Source: Ignavibacteriota bacterium
GTDB taxonomy: Bacteria; Bacteroidota; Ignavibacteria; SZUA-365
Reading direction: 5' to 3'
Length of the DNA stretch: 48,418 bases
NCBI GenBank assembly: GCA_016218045.1
Contig: JACRFB010000042.1
Span: 1-48,418, forward strand
The translations under genes were made by a program, and so were the position numbers. The notes beneath the pieces are model-generated. The model was not told where the DNA came from and searched no databases. It saw only the letters and a program-made list of their open reading frames with translations. Shown here piece by piece: positions 18,195 to 38,529 of the stretch. The first letter of the stretch is position 1; each line of letters begins with the position of its first letter.

Positions 18195-18261
18195 GCGGCA
18201 AGCGTGGGGTCTGTTCTGCTCCGTTGTAGGCGGACGGCCGGTGTCGTTCTGGAGATGTACC

Positions 18262-18424
18262 AAGGTGGGAAAGTAGCAAAGTGGGAAAGTAGCAAGGTGG
18301 GAAAGTAGCAAAGTGGCAAAGTGGAAAGGCGCTGGCCGGCTGGATCTTCTACTTTGCTACTTTCCACTTTTCACGTTCTTCTGCCTTGCCACTTTTCACC
18401 TTCAACGTTCTTTCACTTTCCCCG
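18262..18424. repeat. AAAGTRGN octamer repeats in inverted halves
   Basis: Seven to eight tandem octamers of AAAGTAGC/AAAGTGGG type (18262-18330) are followed after about 20 bp by reverse-complement copies (CTACTTTGCTACTTTCCAC, 18349-18367) and further degenerate words up to the stop of the DUF6599 gene. The inverted halves could form a long hairpin that ends both converging transcripts. Confidence 0.75.
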
Positions 18425-18425
18425 T

Positions 18426-19268
18426 TTACCGAAGAGCCACCCGCTTCAACACCTCCGCGAATTCGGCGGCTGCAGCCGTCGCCTCGACAAGGTATAGCCG
18501 CGCGTTCGTGCCGAGACGCACGGCGCGGCGCCGGCCGTCCTGCTCTCGAATGCTCCAGGATGTTGCATACACGGCTTGTTCGTCGAAGCCCGCGTGGCGG
18601 AGGAACGTCGCGCGTGTCTGTGTGTCGCGGAAGGTGATGCGGGCGATGAGGCGCAGACCTGCGGGAGCGGAGATGTCGATGGTCTCGACCGTGTAGCCGT
18701 CGAGTCCGTCGAAGAGCGCTTCGAGCGCGGGGAAGGCGCTCTGCAGCCCGAGCGGACCATAAATACGACGATGTTGTCCGATAATATCCGGACGGCCCGG
18801 ACGGAGCAGCGGAGCCGGCGTGAAGCGCTCGGCGCGGTACTGACTGCGGAGCGCGCGCAGCAGCGCGGGCAGCACGGTGAGTGCCGTGTCGGGCGGCGTG
18901 ATGGTGAGTTGTATCCACCGCCGTCCCACAAGCGCGCTTGCGCCGTGTGCCCCTATTTCGTCACGCTGTGTGTGCTGCGCCGTGATTCGTGCACCCGGAC
19001 CACTCGCGCGCAGCGACACGAGTCCGTACGCCGCGGCCGCGTCGGACATCTGGTACACATCCACCGTCGCTTCCATGTTGCCCCGCCTGAAACGCCGTAC
19101 ATCGAGCCGCACAAAGCCGTATTCGTGATACAGCTCCGCGCCGCCGTTGATATACCCGAACAACTGCTTGCCCGCATAGGCCTGTGAATCCACCACCGCC
19201 CAGCCGCGCAACACCGGCTGCGCGGCGGCGATCGGTGCAAGGAGGATAAGGGCGAGAAAGAGCTTCAT
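18426..19268 (-). CDS. DUF6599 family exported protein
   Basis: A 280-residue protein starting with a signal peptide (MKLFLALILLAPIAAAQP, likely cleaved after A16). The mature part begins GWAVVDSQAYAGKQLFGYIN and GGAELYHEYGF, the typical DUF6599 opening, followed by 'R.RRGNMEATVDVYQM' and alternating strands. DUF6599 proteins are found in Bacteroidota-like and other Gram-negatives and have no known activity. ATG at 19268 is selected because the upstream extension translates repeat DNA. The gene lies downstream of and on the same strand as the DUF362 gene, separated by two repeat families. Confidence 0.72.
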   Translation of the reverse strand: MKLFLALILLAPIAAAQPVLRGWAVVDSQAYAGKQLFGYINGGAELYHEYGFVRLDVRRFRRGNMEATVDVYQMSDAAAAYGLVSLRASGPGARITAQHTQRDEIGAHGASALVGRRWIQLTITPPDTALTVLPALLRALRSQYRAERFTPAPLLRPGRPDIIGQHRRIYGPLGLQSAFPALEALFDGLDGYTVETIDISAPAGLRLIARITFRDTQTRATFLRHAGFDEQAVYATSWSIREQDGRRRAVRLGTNARLYLVEATAAAAEFAEVLKRVALR

Positions 19269-19365
19269 GGTGGAAGGTGGCAAAGTAGCAAAGTGGAAAG
19301 GTAGCAAGGTTACAAAGTAAAATCTCGCCTTCACGTCTTTACCCCTTCACATCTTTACGACTTCA
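19269..19365. repeat. AAAGTRGN repeats plus GTRAAGNN octamers ending on the DUF362 stop codon
   Basis: 19269-19320 holds AAAGTRGN-type words. 19325-19365, read on the minus strand, is a tandem of GTRAAGNN octamers (GTGAAGTC GTAAAGAT, then GTGAAGGG GTAAAGAC). The TGA stop of the DUF362 gene (19363-19365) is the first of these words, so the array starts exactly at the gene end. Confidence 0.75.
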
Positions 19366-20538: not shown

Positions 20539-20587
20539 GGTGGGGTCCTCCTCACGCGTGTGATGGTGGGTGTTTGGTTGGATCTTC

Positions 20588-20720
20588 GGAGGGTGAAAGT
20601 AGCAAAGTGGAAAGTGGAAAGTGGAAAGTAGCAAAGTGGAAAGTGGAAAGTAGAAAGTGGAATGCGGGATGCCGGACATCGAGTATCTGTTACTTTGCTA
20701 CTTTGCTACCTTGCTACATA
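20588..20720. repeat. AAAGTRG(N) repeats between DUF362 and queC
   Basis: Mixed 7- and 8-bp tandem words of AAAGTGG and AAAGTAGC type (20596-20665), then reverse-complement words CTTTGCTAC (20693-20718). The spacer between the two leftward genes consists of little else. Confidence 0.75.
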
Positions 20721-20725
20721 AAACG

Positions 20726-21418
20726 TTACAACGTTGTTCCACCGACATATGGAATTGGATCCGAATAGCCGGCTTGCGCAAAGCCGCGCAGGCGCAGGGC
20801 GCAGGATTCGCAGACGCCGCAGGCGTGGTCTTCGTTTTTGTAACAACTCCATGTGAGGTGCAGCGGCGCGCCGAGTTCGAGTCCGCGACGCACGATGTCG
20901 GCTTTGGAGAGATCGATGAGCGGCGTGTGTATGATCATGGGGCGCTCGTTTTTTGTGCCCGTTTCGATCACACGCTGCCAGGCGTCGTAGAACACGCGGC
21001 GGCAGTCGGGATAGCCGCTCGAATCCTCCTCCACCGCGCCGATGAACAGCGCTTCCGCGCCGATCACCTCGGCCCAGCTCACCGCGATGGCGAGCATGTT
21101 TGCGTTGCGGAAAGGCACATATGTGTTCGGAATCCCGTCTGTCGATTCCGACGCGTCGTTCACATGCAGGGTGGTGTCGGTCAGGCTCGAGCCGCCGATA
21201 CGTGCCAGATGTTCGATCGACACGATCATACGTCGCGAGTCGGGCACGCCGTAGTGATCCGCTATCGCCTGGAAGGCCTCGAGCTCGCGTGTCTGTGTGC
21301 GCTGTCCGTAATTGACGTGCAGAAATGCCAGCGTGTACGTCTCCGCCGCAATCGCGGCGGTGACACACGAGTCCATTCCGCCGCTGGCGAGCACAATCGC
21401 GATTGATTCGTTGGGCAT
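20726..21418 (-). CDS. queC: 7-cyano-7-deazaguanine synthase QueC
   Basis: A 230-residue PP-loop ATPase that converts 7-carboxy-7-deazaguanine to preQ0 with ATP and ammonia in queuosine biosynthesis. The PP-loop SGGMDS is at 12-17. The zinc-binding cysteines are C192, C200, C203 and C206 ([16 protein letters not shown]), and the segment [15 protein letters not shown] is typical. Full length. The start at 21418 gives the usual [14 protein letters not shown] opening; a 116-bp duplication has copied the start codon and leader upstream. queF lies further upstream on the same strand and queE is across the bioY unit, so three queuosine genes sit within 3.5 kb; queD is not seen. Confidence 0.95.
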
Positions 21419-21628
21419 CGTTGTCTTTACGTTACACGTAGCACGTATCCATGTGACACGTTGTAGGTAGGAAAGTGGGTAAGTAGCAAAGTGGCAAAGT
21501 AAAAGATTTCCGTCGCGATTGATTCGTTGGGCATCGTGGTCTTTACGTTACACGTAGCACGTATCCATGTGACACGTTATTGTGGGAAAGTAGACAAGTA
21601 GCAAAGTGGCCAAGTAAAAGATTGTTCC
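21397..21628. repeat. 116-bp tandem duplication of the queC 5' end and leader
   Basis: The stretch starting TCGCGATTGATTCG at 21397 recurs from 21513 with few changes and the same order: start-codon region, then TTACGTTACACGTAGCACGT, then AAAGTRGN words and AAAAGATT. The period is 116 bp with one indel. The second copy contains a decoy queC start (MPNESIA) that soon runs out of frame. Confidence 0.85.
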
Positions 21629-21633
21629 ATTAC

Positions 21634-22011: not shown

Positions 22012-22103
22012 CACTCCACCTCTGTCAACGGATACTTTCTCCCACGAATATACCGCAGCGTGTGCATACAAGCACGGAGAGCGGGAGCGGAACAACGACA
22101 TGG

Positions 22104-22131
22104 TGTCTCGCTGAGCGGAGTCGAAGCGCGG
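22104..22131 (-). repeat. Single copy of the 36-bp hairpin element next to the GIY-YIG stop
   Basis: The minus strand reads CGCGCTTCGACTCCGCTCAG then CGAGACACC, matching the repeated unit at 22678-22857 but on the opposite strand. It begins about nine bases after the stop of the GIY-YIG gene, so that gene is flanked by inverted copies. Confidence 0.8.
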
Positions 22132-22139
22132 CGGCATTT

Positions 22140-22448
22140 CTACCTTCGTTTGCTTGCAGATCCATTTCTGCATTCCGAAAGCTGCCGTACCGATTCCATG
22201 TCTCTTGCAATGAGGGCTGACTTCTTCGCCCGGCTCCAACCCTTGATTTGTTTCTCTGCACGAATAGCTTGTTCGATCAAGAGGTAGTCCTGCAAGAACA
22301 CGAGACGCACCGGTCTGCGTTGCGCGGTATATGACGTAGGGTCCACAGCGTCCTGATGCTCTATAAGTCGACGAGTTATATCATTCGTGACACCGGTGTA
22401 GTATGAACCATCTGCACATTCAAGGATGTAGACGTAGTACTGTTTCAT
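22140..22448 (-). CDS. Small GIY-YIG nuclease-domain protein
   Basis: A 102-residue protein made of one GIY-YIG domain (UvrC/intron-endonuclease superfamily, YhbQ-like single-domain type). Motif elements: YVYIL (5-9) and YYTGVT (16-21) correspond to GIY and YIG, R26 in DITRRLIEH is the catalytic arginine, and E64 in IRAEKQIKGWSRAKK the metal-binding glutamate. AAAGGGGC precedes the ATG at 22448; an upstream in-frame ATG at 22469 would add seven residues. The gene is enclosed by copies of a 36-bp hairpin-forming element, one nine bases after the stop and a five-unit array about 230 bp upstream in inverse orientation. The intact active site and the flanking repeats suggest a nuclease acting on those repeats; that is inference. 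Confidence 0.85.
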   Translation of the reverse strand: MKQYYVYILECADGSYYTGVTNDITRRLIEHQDAVDPTSYTAQRRPVRLVFLQDYLLIEQAIRAEKQIKGWSRAKKSALIARDMESVRQLSECRNGSASKRR

Positions 22449-22640
22449 GATGTGCCCCTTTAATGGCAATGATGTACCCGGGCTTTGTACGCGCGGCGTA
22501 AATACTTTGTTCCCATGTGGCGAGGGTGAGGGGTTTTGTACAGATGTCTCAGGGCTTGCAGGCCCGATCCCGTTTCACGGTTACTTCGCGTTCCGCTGTG
22601 TGTGTCAGGATGAACGTAGTCGAAGCCGACACGCGCATCA

Positions 22641-22863
22641 GTCGCGCTTTCCGCCCAAGGCGGATCCTGCGAGACACCGAGTCGTCGCGCTTCGACTCCG
22701 CTCAGCGAGACACGGAGTCGTCGCGCTTCGACTCCGCTCAGCGAGACACCGAGTCGTCGCGCTTCGACTCCGCTCAGCGAGACACCGAGTCGTCGCGCTT
22801 CGACTCCGCTCAGCGAGACACCGAGTCGTCGCGCTTCGACTCCGCTCAGCGAGACACGGTGTC
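22641..22863 (+). repeat. Five tandem copies of a 36-bp element plus a diverged edge copy
   Basis: Units start at 22678, 22714, 22750, 22786 and 22822, each 36 bp with the core CGCTTCGACTCCGCTCAGCG and end GAGACAC; they are nearly identical. A sixth unit at 22641-22677 keeps both ends but has a different middle (TTTCCGCCCAAGGCGGATCC). Each unit can fold into an imperfect hairpin. There are no unique spacers, so it is not CRISPR. Because 36 is a multiple of three, every frame stays open and translates as a 12-residue repeat; no gene is inferred from that. Confidence 0.9.
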
Positions 22864-24182: not shown

Positions 24183-24395
24183 GAGTAGGGAGCTGGGAGT
24201 AGGGAGTAGGGAGTAGGGAGTTGGGAGTAGGGAGTGGGGACAGCGGGAGAGCGGGACAGCGGGACAGCGGGAGAGCGGGAGAGCGGGACAGCGGGAGAGC
24301 GGGACAGCGGTGTAGTGTCACGCCGAGCTTGTCGAGGCGCGATGACACTGCGAGAATTTTACGCGTGTCGGCTTCGACTCCACTCAGCCTGACAC
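24183..24395. repeat. Composite of heptamer, octamer and hairpin repeats after queE
   Basis: Four families run head to tail: seven GGGAGTD heptamers (24188-24236), nine GASAGCGG octamers (24239-24310), a hairpin element GTGTCACGCC - GAGCTTGTCGA - GGCGCGATGACAC (24316-24349) and one half of the 36-bp element (GCTTCGACTCCACTCAGCCT, from about 24370). The same order of families occurs around 30.2 kb and 33.5 kb, so they move or grow as a set. Confidence 0.85.
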
Positions 24396-29600: not shown

Positions 29601-30524
29601 TTGCGGCGCGCCGAAATGCCAGATGCCCGCGCGCAGGCGTTGCGACTCGCTGCCGTCGGTCGAGCGAAGCAGGCACTCGTCCGTCCGCACGCGCAGGCCT
29701 TCTGCCAGCGGCATCTGGAACACCATGAACCAGCGCCGGTCGTTCGCGTGTTCGCCGCGCACGGCGATGTTCTGCGCACCCGCGCGCAGCAGCGCCCGCG
29801 GCATCGACAGTGTCAGCAGACCGAAGGCGTCGCCATGGACATCGATGAGCAGTGTGTGAAAAACGAGGCGCATGCCGTTGGCCGCAGTGGTGTCGAAGCC
29901 CGTCCACGACGAATCGCGCGGATTGCGGAAGTGAAACACTTCAGCGCCGTTCACCGACAGACGAAACAGCCGTCCCCCCGGCTTCGTGTCGAAACCCGCG
30001 AGCATTACGAAGCGCGCGGTGTCGCCCGTCCACCCGGCGGGCACTTCCTCTGTCTCCCATTCGATGTACTTCGACGAATCGATCGCGCGCACCAGCAGCG
30101 CGTCCGTTGCTCCCGGGAAGCGTCCCGCGTAGTCGATCACTTCGCCGGTGATACGCGTGTTGCAGCCGGAGAAGGAGAGCGGGACAGCGAGAGAGCGGGA
30201 GAGCGGGACAGCGAGAGAGCGGGAGAGCGGGACAGCGAGAGAGCGGGACAGCGGGACAGCGAGAGAGCGGCCCTGTGTCACGCCGAGCTTGTCGAGGCGC
30301 GACGGAAGAGCGTACCCACGACACAGTGTCTCGCTGAGCGGAGTCGAAGCGCGACCACATGGTGTCAGCGCCTCGTTTTCATTGGCTGCGAAGCCAAGGC
30401 GCGGCGGAGCGGCAAACACCATCTGTGTCAGCATCACACCGCTTGTGACGAGTGCGAGGAACAGAACACTCACGCGGCGTTTGCACGATGCGCTGCGGCG
30501 CGGGAGAGGTGATGAAGGAGGCAT
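26679..30524 (-). CDS. Secreted GH38-like alpha-mannosidase-family protein, repeat-invaded
   Basis: A 1281-residue protein. After a signal peptide (residues about 10-38, VSVLFLALVTSGVMLTQMVF ending in AA) comes a beta-rich domain. The GH38 barrel starts at VYLLPHSHVDIGYTD, with metal ligands H416, H418 and D420 and the nucleophile D542 in MMQVDIPGAAWG. The GH38 C-terminal beta domains follow (YELSNGILRIRLDSVTGNI and onward). The expected activity is hydrolysis of alpha-mannosidic links in the periplasm or outside; specificity unknown. Two in-frame repeat insertions are present: residues about 58-117 (36-bp hairpin element plus twelve octamers, giving SLAVPLSR units) and about 359-395 (four 27-bp palindromic units). 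SFSGC after the first insert looks like a lipobox and might be a remnant of the original export signal. ATG at 30524 is chosen for the signal peptide. Confidence 0.82.
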   Translation of the reverse strand: MPPSSPLPRRSASCKRRVSVLFLALVTSGVMLTQMVFAAPPRLGFAANENEALTPCGRASTPLSETLCRGYALPSRLDKLGVTQGRSLAVPLSRSLAVPLSRSLAVPLSRSLAVPLSFSGCNTRITGEVIDYAGRFPGATDALLVRAIDSSKYIEWETEEVPAGWTGDTARFVMLAGFDTKPGGRLFRLSVNGAEVFHFRNPRDSSWTGFDTTAANGMRLVFHTLLIDVHGDAFGLLTLSMPRALLRAGAQNIAVRGEHANDRRWFMVFQMPLAEGLRVRTDECLLRSTDGSESQRLRAGIWHFGAPQPVVLSALDSNSVLLAEHRFVLRPGHTEIPLPVPPVDAPRKMVVRVGADAGTRVRADGRPPQRTSVGRLPVHASDGRPPHRTSDGRPPLHEVVHVIQPVRRYTVYLLPHSHVDIGYTDQQHRVEDIHWNNIEAAIDLAERTQNYPEGSRFVWNLETAWALWGYGHPQDRLRRSTPRIPDPRLKDALKKGWLHLDATYTNTNTSTNNAEELIDLFRPARAMSSQYNIPVTSMMQVDIPGAAWGVVTAAARSGIRYFVSAPNNSDRIGLVREAWEDKPFYWISQSGRDTLLYWQIQPYSLAYGLKGQRIRNRLWHDSVRAIAGEDPEKGFLDPYLFDHLATLSAKRYPYDMIALSWALSDNAAIDPDLPDAVRAWNERYASPRILISSTATACAVLEARYGAVLPHYSGDMTEYWTDGIGSGARETALKRGAVETLLQTETLRTMTGFEPAASSDEAWRFVALFSEHTWGAWNSTSEPDNEAVRQQWHTKRGFAETADSLARSFRDSTLSLARARIITGPQRHPYTNTRIADVYNTLDQTRKGLIILPPGYSRKTGTVMDSVHAIGHQVLADSSLALYSKGIPAFGVERFRFESYVLRGEVAYPKHVARAEKYELSNGILRIRLDSVTGNIASIIDLRTKREYVDSGSAAGMNAYFYLPGDSLARLLGSGSATITVKEKGPLRAALLVRSPAPGCHWLEREIRLAAEADFLEIENRLDKIAIREKEGVHFGFGFRIPGGTMRIDAPWATIIPEKDQLPGSCKNWLTVQRHVDISNDTMGVTWATLDAPLMEVGGITARLLGAQWQSPEWIRTLPPSQTLYSWALNNHWHTNFRADQEGELRFRYAIRPHGGYDAAAAMRFGIEQAQPFISTPLLIARPARENREPTPVQLRVHIDNPSVVLLRMGSLDQYPDAGPNPSDAASNAASAFLRLFNPTETTQKYVLQVRQPHQKTADEERTTLRTGVLGPYEHVTLLLE
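29341..29448 (-). repeat. Four 27-bp palindromic repeats inside the GH38 gene
   Basis: Units begin at 29341, 29368, 29395 and 29422, each with the palindrome core CGGACGGCCGTCCG (third copy degenerate). The period of 27 bp keeps the reading frame and yields nine-residue units of the type SDGRPPHRT. A single related word (GGCGGACGGCCGG) occurs near 18225, outside any gene. Confidence 0.85.
30175..30352 (-). repeat. Octamer array and hairpin elements inserted in the GH38 coding region
   Basis: Twelve perfect GASAGCGR octamers (30175-30270, 96 bp) are followed by the element CGCCGAGCTTGTCGAGGCG (about 30281-30299) and a copy of the 36-bp element (GTGTCTCGCTGAGCGGAGTC, from 30321). Twelve octamers are 32 codons, so the frame is preserved. 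The order matches the intergenic composites at 24.2 and 33.5 kb. Confidence 0.85.
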
Positions 30525-30775
30525 GTGCGTTGGGCTGATAGGAAGGAAGCGCGGTGGTGGTGTGCCTGCGTATGCGCGGAGGAAGTGTGTACGGCGCAAA
30601 CTTACGATAGCGGGGGATGAGACGGGAGGGGAGCTCGTCATGTACGAGCGGAACTACCGGTTTTTGAAGCATACTACTCAAGTGTACCGCTGCAACACGG
30701 ATGTGTGCCGTGTGTCGCCCTCCGCTGCGCTCCGGGCTCTATCGTGTCGCCCTCCGCTGCGCTCCGGGCTCCGTT

Positions 30776-30953
30776 GAACGTAGCAACGTGGAAAGTAGCC
30801 ACGTGGAAAGTAGCCACGTGGAAAGTAGCCACGTGGATCGTAGAACGTTGAACGTGCGACGTGTTACGTGGCACCGTGGAAAGTAGCAAGGTGGAACGTG
30901 CTAACGTGTCACGTGTCAACGTGTAACGTGTTACATCTCACGCCTTCACGCCT

Positions 30954-33444: not shown

Positions 33445-33660
33445 CGAAGATGAGTCGGGAGTTGGGAGTAGGGAGTAGGGAGTTGTGTGATGCCGAGCTT
33501 GTCGAGGCACGACGGGACAGCGGGACAGCGGGAGAGTGTCTCGCTGAGCGGAGTCGAAGCGCGACGACACTGTGTCTCGCTGAGCGGAGTCGAAGCGCGA
33601 CGACACTGTGTCTCGCTGAGCGGAGTCGAAGCGCAACGAAACTGTGTCTCGCTGAGTTCG
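33445..33660. repeat. Repeat composite upstream of leuS, with 36-bp tandem units
   Basis: GGGAGTW heptamers (about 33456-33485), the element TGCCGAGCTTGTCGAGGCA (33491-33509), three octamers of GACAGCGG type and then 36-bp units at 33536, 33572 and 33608 plus a partial copy from 33644 that breaks off after CTGAG. The 36-bp units are reverse complements of those at 22.7 kb. Confidence 0.88.
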
Positions 33661-35285: not shown

Positions 35286-35442
35286 CTCAGGGTCGGAGAG
35301 CCGGACAGCGGGACAGCCGGAGAAAACCTCCCCTTCTCCGTGCCTCCCTGTTGCTGTTCTCCTGTTCTCCATTCCCTCCGGCACTCCACGCTCCTTCGTC
35401 ATTACATTTTTTCTTCCTCCGCGCCAGGCCCTACATTTCCTT
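35286..35442. repeat. Degenerate octamer words before hypA
   Basis: GCCGGACAGCGGGACAGCCG at about 35299-35318 is a short run of the GASAGCGR family, followed by C/T-rich degenerate words. No clear ribosome-binding site precedes hypA. Confidence 0.5.
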
Positions 35443-38201: not shown

Positions 38202-38529
38202 TGGATCTGTTGAGTGTGGAAGGTAGCAACGTGGAAAGTTGAAGGGGAAAGAGGGAAGGGGGAAGGGGGAAGAGGGAAGAGGGAAGGGGCGGAATGCGTT
38301 TTTCACACCGTCATTGCTTCGTGTATTCGCGCCGCGCTGCGCAATCCCATGAGCCCCGGAGGGGCGGCATTCACCAACCCACACCGTGAGAAGTCTGCTG
38401 CGCGCCACGCGATCCCACCTTCCACTTTCCCCGGCCCCCGCCCACTTTCCACTTTGCTACCTTCCACTTTCCACATTCCATTGACCCAACTACCCTCCAT
38501 CACCTAACTTGCACAAAACGGACCCCACC
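38202..38529. repeat. Spacer between hypF and hypC, mostly repeat words
   Basis: AAAGTRGN-type words (38216-38245), a purine-rich stretch of GGGAAGAG/GGGGAAG words (38240-38288), then reverse-complement CCACTTTGCTAC words (38420-38480). About 130 bp in the middle (38290-38418) show no feature. The two hyp gene pairs may therefore be separate transcripts or one long one. Confidence 0.7.

Follow-up and report, generated by a model that had tools for sequence, protein, structure and literature searches.

A small GIY-YIG nuclease gene enclosed by inverted hairpin elements: a probable REPtron analogue with an unrelated enzyme

The window analyzed here is a 48,418-nt stretch of DNA (contig JACRFB010000042.1, assembly GCA_016218045.1) from an Ignavibacteriota bacterium with a genome of 4.77 Mb. 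It harbors a gene for a small, single-domain GIY-YIG nuclease with a short hairpin element on either side, in opposite orientations. The element is composed of a 5' tag, a short stem, and a conserved loop. Further copies are dispersed along the window. The gene and the element copies are located as follows:

22103..22134, + strand: downstream element copy with GTGTC tag, CGCT/AGCG stem, and GAGCGGAGTCGA loop
22140..22448, - strand: single-domain GIY-YIG nuclease gene, 102 aa (PF01541, E=4.8e-14; AlphaFold2 pLDDT 93.8)
22602..22633, + strand: degenerate element copy (GTGTCAGGATGAACGTAGTCGAAGCCGACACG) between the gene start and the array
22682..22857, - strand: five tandem element copies with an exact period of 36, upstream of the gene
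24315..24345, + strand: variant element with the 11-nt loop GAGCTTGTCGA, in a head-to-head doublet with the copy at 24364..24395
24364..24395, - strand: element copy whose stem differs but is paired (GGCT/AGCC), with loop GAGTGGAGTCGA
30275..30305, + strand: variant element with loop GAGCTTGTCGA and stem CGCC/GGCG
30326..30357, + strand: dispersed element copy
33485..33515, + strand: variant element with loop GAGCTTGTCGA and stem TGCC/GGCA
33536..33639, + strand: three tandem element copies, period 36

The protein shows the GIY-YIG superfamily fold with its conserved Tyr, Arg, and Glu. The residues of the catalytic motif are intact, and Y7, G19, R27, and E65 are invariant among 34 relatives, with Y17 nearly so. 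Together with the domain match, this bears out the original prediction of an intact 102-residue GIY-YIG gene, although the reading frame comprises 109 residues if an upstream TTG is used as the start instead of the ATG. The nearest solved folds are the UPF0213 proteins 1zg2 and 1ywl, followed by Slx1, a nuclease of branched DNA. NCBIfam holds no family for the protein.

The downstream element copy (GTGTCtcgCTGAGCGGAGTCGAAGcG) lies 5 bp beyond the stop codon of the gene. The five-copy array is found ~230 bp before the start and has the opposite orientation to the downstream copy; the tags therefore point outward on both sides. The inverted enclosure and the further copies at 24.37, 30.32, and 33.54–33.66 kb that had been described from the sequence are thus confirmed by their coordinates. 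The degenerate copy at 22602–22633 and the 11-nt-loop variants starting at 24315, 30275, and 33485 had been overlooked. The length of 36 bp first given for the element holds as the period of the tandem arrays in the window, while the conserved core measures ~31–32 bp. Arrays of an 8-bp unit (GGACAGCG/GGAGAGCG) occur in the window at 24213–24320, 30149–30275, 33507–33543, and 35287–35323 and mostly adjoin hairpin elements, both here and at other sites of the genome.

Pattern counts across the genome yield 89 matches to the 12-nt loop GAGCGGAGTCGA, which are clustered and spread over many contigs. Since the reversed control gives 0 matches, the element is not a chance sequence. Outside the window the copies are spaced ~50–116 bp apart. 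In this genome as a whole they mostly form same-orientation tandem arrays, and the head-to-head geometry is less clear than in Sphingomonads. The GTGTC tag and the loop are constant among the copies, whereas the 4-bp stem varies with compensation. Six paired stem types are present (CGCT/AGCG, CGCC/GGCG, CCCT/AGGG, CCCC/GGGG, TGCC/GGCA, and GGCT/AGCC), and 4 bp or more are paired in the stems of 34 of 36 distinct element contexts. Between loci of different genomes, stem pairs 2–4 are paired far more often than with shuffled partners. Examples are pair 3 (17/22 versus 7.1 shuffled) and, in the class with an 11-nt loop, values of 30/34 versus 13.1 and 29/34 versus 12.9 (0 of 2000 shuffles). This covariation indicates that the hairpin itself is kept and not the sequence alone; the stem-loop is under selection.

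The association of element and gene extends far beyond the window. A protein scan of 84,980 species genomes led to 80 loci in Bacteroidota, Ignavibacteriota, Chloroflexota, Eremiobacterota (Vulcanimicrobiota), Pseudomonadota, and one Halanaerobiales metagenome-assembled genome (MAG). The loop motif occurs within 700 bp of the gene in 56 of them, and the element density drops from 6.3/kb within 100 bp of the gene to ~0.1/kb beyond 1 kb. Many of the remaining loci follow the same plan with another loop, e.g., TGTCAGTCTGAGGCTCTCGAAGACA or CCTCATCCTGAGGAGC...GCGTCTCGAAGGATG. The geometry can also be assessed independently of any motif by the best inverted match between the 250-bp flanks, which is considered strong when a score of 15 is reached. 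Strong inverted flanks are present at 41 of 71 genes, whereas none of 809 control placements within these loci shows them. In 16 proteobacterial genomes they surround 33 of 53 small GIY-YIG genes but 0 of 94 placements, 0 of 13 UvrC genes, and 0 of 7 genes of other GIY-YIG subfamilies. The loci are partly non-independent, as syntenic groups within genera reduce the 80 to ~60; the p-values of adjacency are therefore overstated, which leaves the conclusion unaffected. The comparison with other positions and genes that had been proposed as a check is decisive for the association, and the enrichment near GIY-YIG genes, whose absence would have spoken against the original prediction, is present. 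The association and its inverted geometry hold across phyla. The same statistics contradict a reading of the elements as ordinary regulatory hairpins or terminators that lie near the gene by chance or through an intergenic bias. Their intergenic position and hairpin-like form would suit this view, but Rfam contains no match to the element and the loop follows the protein clade, and it is considered very improbable.

In a maximum-likelihood tree, the loop class tracks the clade of the protein and not the host. Three Chloroflexota proteins nest inside the proteobacterial clade (95/98 support) and are accompanied by its 11-nt-loop elements and CCGCTC-type tags, which separates the effect of the protein from that of the host. 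Sphingomonas cavernae (G185) encodes about a dozen small GIY-YIG paralogs with different elements. Each ortholog in Novosphingobium (G180) or Parerythrobacter (G183) has the element type of its G185 counterpart, e.g., CGTCACCCCGGGCTTGACCCGGGGTCC at L242, L249, and L259. These matched types show a cognate specificity between nuclease and element.

Many of the elements that flank the proteobacterial genes are CGTC repetitive extragenic palindromes (REPs). Di Nocera et al. catalogued the CGTC REPs in five phyla in 2013 and characterized them by a CGTC, TGTC, or CCTC tag, an 8–9 bp stem starting with AT, a loop of 4–5 nt, and a CCA tail (PMC3733652). They were reported without a dedicated transposase, and no transposase flanked by the repeats was found by these authors (PMC3733652). 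Eight further records of sister GIY-YIG subfamilies were obtained as tblastn matches and each checked on its own DNA. CGTC REPs flank the gene in all eight, on both sides in seven (Azospirillum lipoferum 4B, Neisseria gonorrhoeae, Sinorhizobium meliloti, Novosphingobium aromaticivorans, Aeromonas caviae, Rhizobium, and Shinella) and on one side only in Photobacterium. The 2013 paper already names the Azospirillum, Neisseria, Sinorhizobium, and Novosphingobium entries, by species or by genus (PMC3733652). Most elements at L296–L298, L300, L302, and L303 show all CGTC REP features. The L299 element has the tag and the stem, but begins with GC, and its loop was scored at 3 nt. The element of the window is not a CGTC REP, as it has only the TGTC tag in common and combines a stem of ~4 bp with a 12-nt loop.

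The dispersed copies are best resolved in S. cavernae, where one CGTC element is present in 62 copies (controls 0). All 18 neighboring pairs of this element closer than 500 bp are head-to-head, with offsets of 57–67 bp in fifteen pairs, 164 bp in one, and 346 and 431 bp in the two widest, which are exactly the pairs that enclose GIY-YIG genes. An empty site is found between sufB and sufC of Azospirillum. The two genes are separated by a doublet-gene-doublet unit in A. lipoferum, and A. ramasamyi, A. oryzae, A. sp. B510, and A. thermophilum harbor neither gene nor element at this position, with flanks that are 90–97% identical. The whole unit is present or absent at one site, as in mobile elements with an empty site. 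Close pairs among the 80 loci that were compared for element-sized insertions or deletions differ by changes in array length only.

These observations suggest, with a probability of about three in four, that the hairpin element has its cognate nuclease in the small GIY-YIG protein and that both form a GIY-YIG-driven analogue of the REPtron, the pairing of REPs with a REP-associated tyrosine transposase (RAYT). The proposal that a GIY-YIG nuclease takes a RAYT-like role here is supported by the geometry, the cognate specificity, the dispersed doublets, and the empty site, and it proves more general than the window alone. That the protein acts on its cognate element is very probable, and mobilization of the element by the nuclease is probable, if less firmly so. 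The autonomous unit would be a head-to-head pair of elements enclosing the GIY-YIG gene, and the dispersed single, paired, and tandem elements would represent non-autonomous derivatives, mobilized in trans. Recognition by the nuclease most likely involves the tag together with the hairpin, either as an extruded cruciform or as a single strand at the replication fork. The nuclease probably nicks or cuts there, and cutting would lead to the spread of the element via host replication or break repair. GIY-YIG enzymes are not known to form a covalent intermediate, and host repair would therefore have to join the ends. On a wider scale, the balance tips toward GIY-YIG nucleases as the drivers of a large and ancient class of mobile bacterial palindromes that unites the CGTC REPs with the new GAG...TCGA-loop class, through a transposition chemistry unlike that of any known transposase and with cognate pairs diversifying in parallel within single genomes.

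Several points weigh against this interpretation. Cleavage of the element by the protein, its role in the spread, and the route of joining are inferred. About a third of the homologs lack a strong inverted pair within the 250 bp on either side, and within genera the gene is mostly syntenic and therefore vertically inherited. At the Azospirillum empty site neither a target-site duplication nor a precise junction can be read, as the intergenic flanks are too diverged. Finally, two element-rich genomes, G042 (complete, single contig, ~222 matches) and G077, have no small GIY-YIG gene; their GIY-YIG frames are UvrC-sized and 446–460 aa only. Co-occurrence was assessed in 148 genomes of the phylum Bacteroidota, in which the gene was called at E<=1e-20 and element-rich was set by the analysts at 20 matches above control. 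The gene is present in 9 and absent from 9 of the element-rich genomes, compared with 29 and 101 of the others. The co-occurrence is only moderate (odds ratio 3.5, p=0.02) because some element-rich genomes do not have the gene. The expectation that such genomes would not exist has failed in part. Loss of the gene after the spread of the element would account for these genomes and is likely, since a member of the same family as G042 (G130) has the gene with flanking elements (L148).

The gene-less genomes also fit a different explanation, in which another enzyme, e.g., a Y1 (RAYT-like) transposase, mobilizes the elements and the GIY-YIG gene is a passenger between two copies. Y1_Tnp genes are indeed present in the genome of the window. 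However, five element-bearing genomes (G185, G183, G180, G041, and G042) have no Y1_Tnp gene, and 0 of 20 Y1 loci in related genomes have an adjacent element, so that a RAYT was rejected as the mobilizer. Di Nocera et al. found no transposase flanked by CGTC repeats either (PMC3733652), and repeated, independent capture of a single cargo gene family across many phyla, each time with a matching type of element, is implausible. The passenger explanation is accordingly given little weight.

Slightly less improbable, but still unlikely, is a role of the nuclease as a host repair or resolution enzyme that acts on cruciforms of the repeats. The pair would then be retained because it serves genome maintenance or lets the gene regulate itself, and the repeats would spread in another way. 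The structure-selective Slx1 is among the nearest solved relatives, the gene is inherited vertically and in synteny, and a function in backup repair was proposed for the small GIY-YIG (COG2827) genes of Caulobacter (PMC1839093). Such a role leaves unexplained why head-to-head copies enclose the gene itself, why each paralog has its own element family, and why the whole unit is present or absent.

Further observations concern the GIY-YIG genes and their surroundings. An alphaproteobacterial MAG (L062) and the Burkholderiales loci L074, L083, L097, and L112 have ~2 kb upstream of the GIY-YIG gene in common, probably a mutase gene before a MeaB-like gene; the site of the gene is the same in the two classes. 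The GIY-YIG frame stays open across the downstream element and is continuous with that of the adjoining host gene in Beta-, Gamma-, and Sphingomonad genomes as well as in one Chitinophagaceae MAG, with element-encoded linkers such as LRQAQPERGG and VRPEPVEG. The fusion partners, named by eye, are a MeaB-like GTPase (L074, L083, L097, L109, and L112), an RNA methyltransferase-like protein (L071, L073, and L099), a JAB-like protease (L077 and L095), a deaminase (L089), and a PurK-like protein (L076). Tandem triplicates of small GIY-YIG genes are found at G162:C1:1384640-1385513, G162:C1:1733884-1734727, and G004:C1:3709349-3710400, with a constant spacing (~323, 317, and 427 bp). The window additionally contains degenerate arrays with units like AAAGTAGC/AAAGTGGC (18230–18339, 19258–19319, 20578–20659, 21456–21632, 30773–30929, and 38208–38480) and a 66-bp near-exact direct repeat at 21397 and 21513.

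Two puzzles, the CGTC REPs without a transposase and the orphan COG2827 nucleases, appear to answer each other. The small COG2827 genes have been regarded as orphan endonucleases with a guessed role in excision repair (PMC1839093). Neither a REP survey from 2025 (PMC12306157) nor a phylogenomic study of RAYTs (PMC6006769) mentions GIY-YIG proteins, and no earlier link between GIY-YIG genes and REPs or CGTC repeats was found in the open-licence PMC papers that were searched. The concrete pairing of enzyme and substrate can be tested in ordinary laboratory strains, and the cognate nuclease-hairpin pairs provide a natural panel for studies of structure-specific recognition. The chemistry of mobility is possibly new.

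Four known systems resemble parts of this arrangement. The UPF0213 proteins (BH0048 and EF2693) and Slx1 have the closest solved folds, but have no known link to repeats, and Slx1 possesses extra domains and acts in repair. Free-standing GIY-YIG homing endonucleases such as the seg genes of phage T4 are likewise small mobile GIY-YIG genes, but homing carries the gene itself into a single cognate site via gene conversion. Such genes are not known to be enclosed by dispersed hairpin families. The CGTC REPs share the TGTC tag with the window element, and elements of the published type flank the sister GIY-YIG genes, whereas the class of the window element has a variable stem of 4–6 bp and a conserved loop of 11–12 nt (GAG...TCGA). 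The REPtron is matched in several respects: a single nuclease gene has inverted copies of a short, tagged palindrome on both sides, and this palindrome is dispersed in the genome as singlets and head-to-head doublets and forms cognate pairs with its enzyme. Inheritance is mostly vertical, as it is for RAYTs. The REPtron enzyme, however, is a Y1/HUH tyrosine transposase, to which the GIY-YIG nuclease is unrelated and whose covalent-tyrosine strand transfer is not part of known GIY-YIG chemistry. The tag is GTAG in the REPtron and GTGTC, TGTCA, CGTCA, CCTCA, CGTTCG, or CGCTCA in the elements studied here. Because both the enzyme and the tag differ, the system works like a REPtron, yet is not one.
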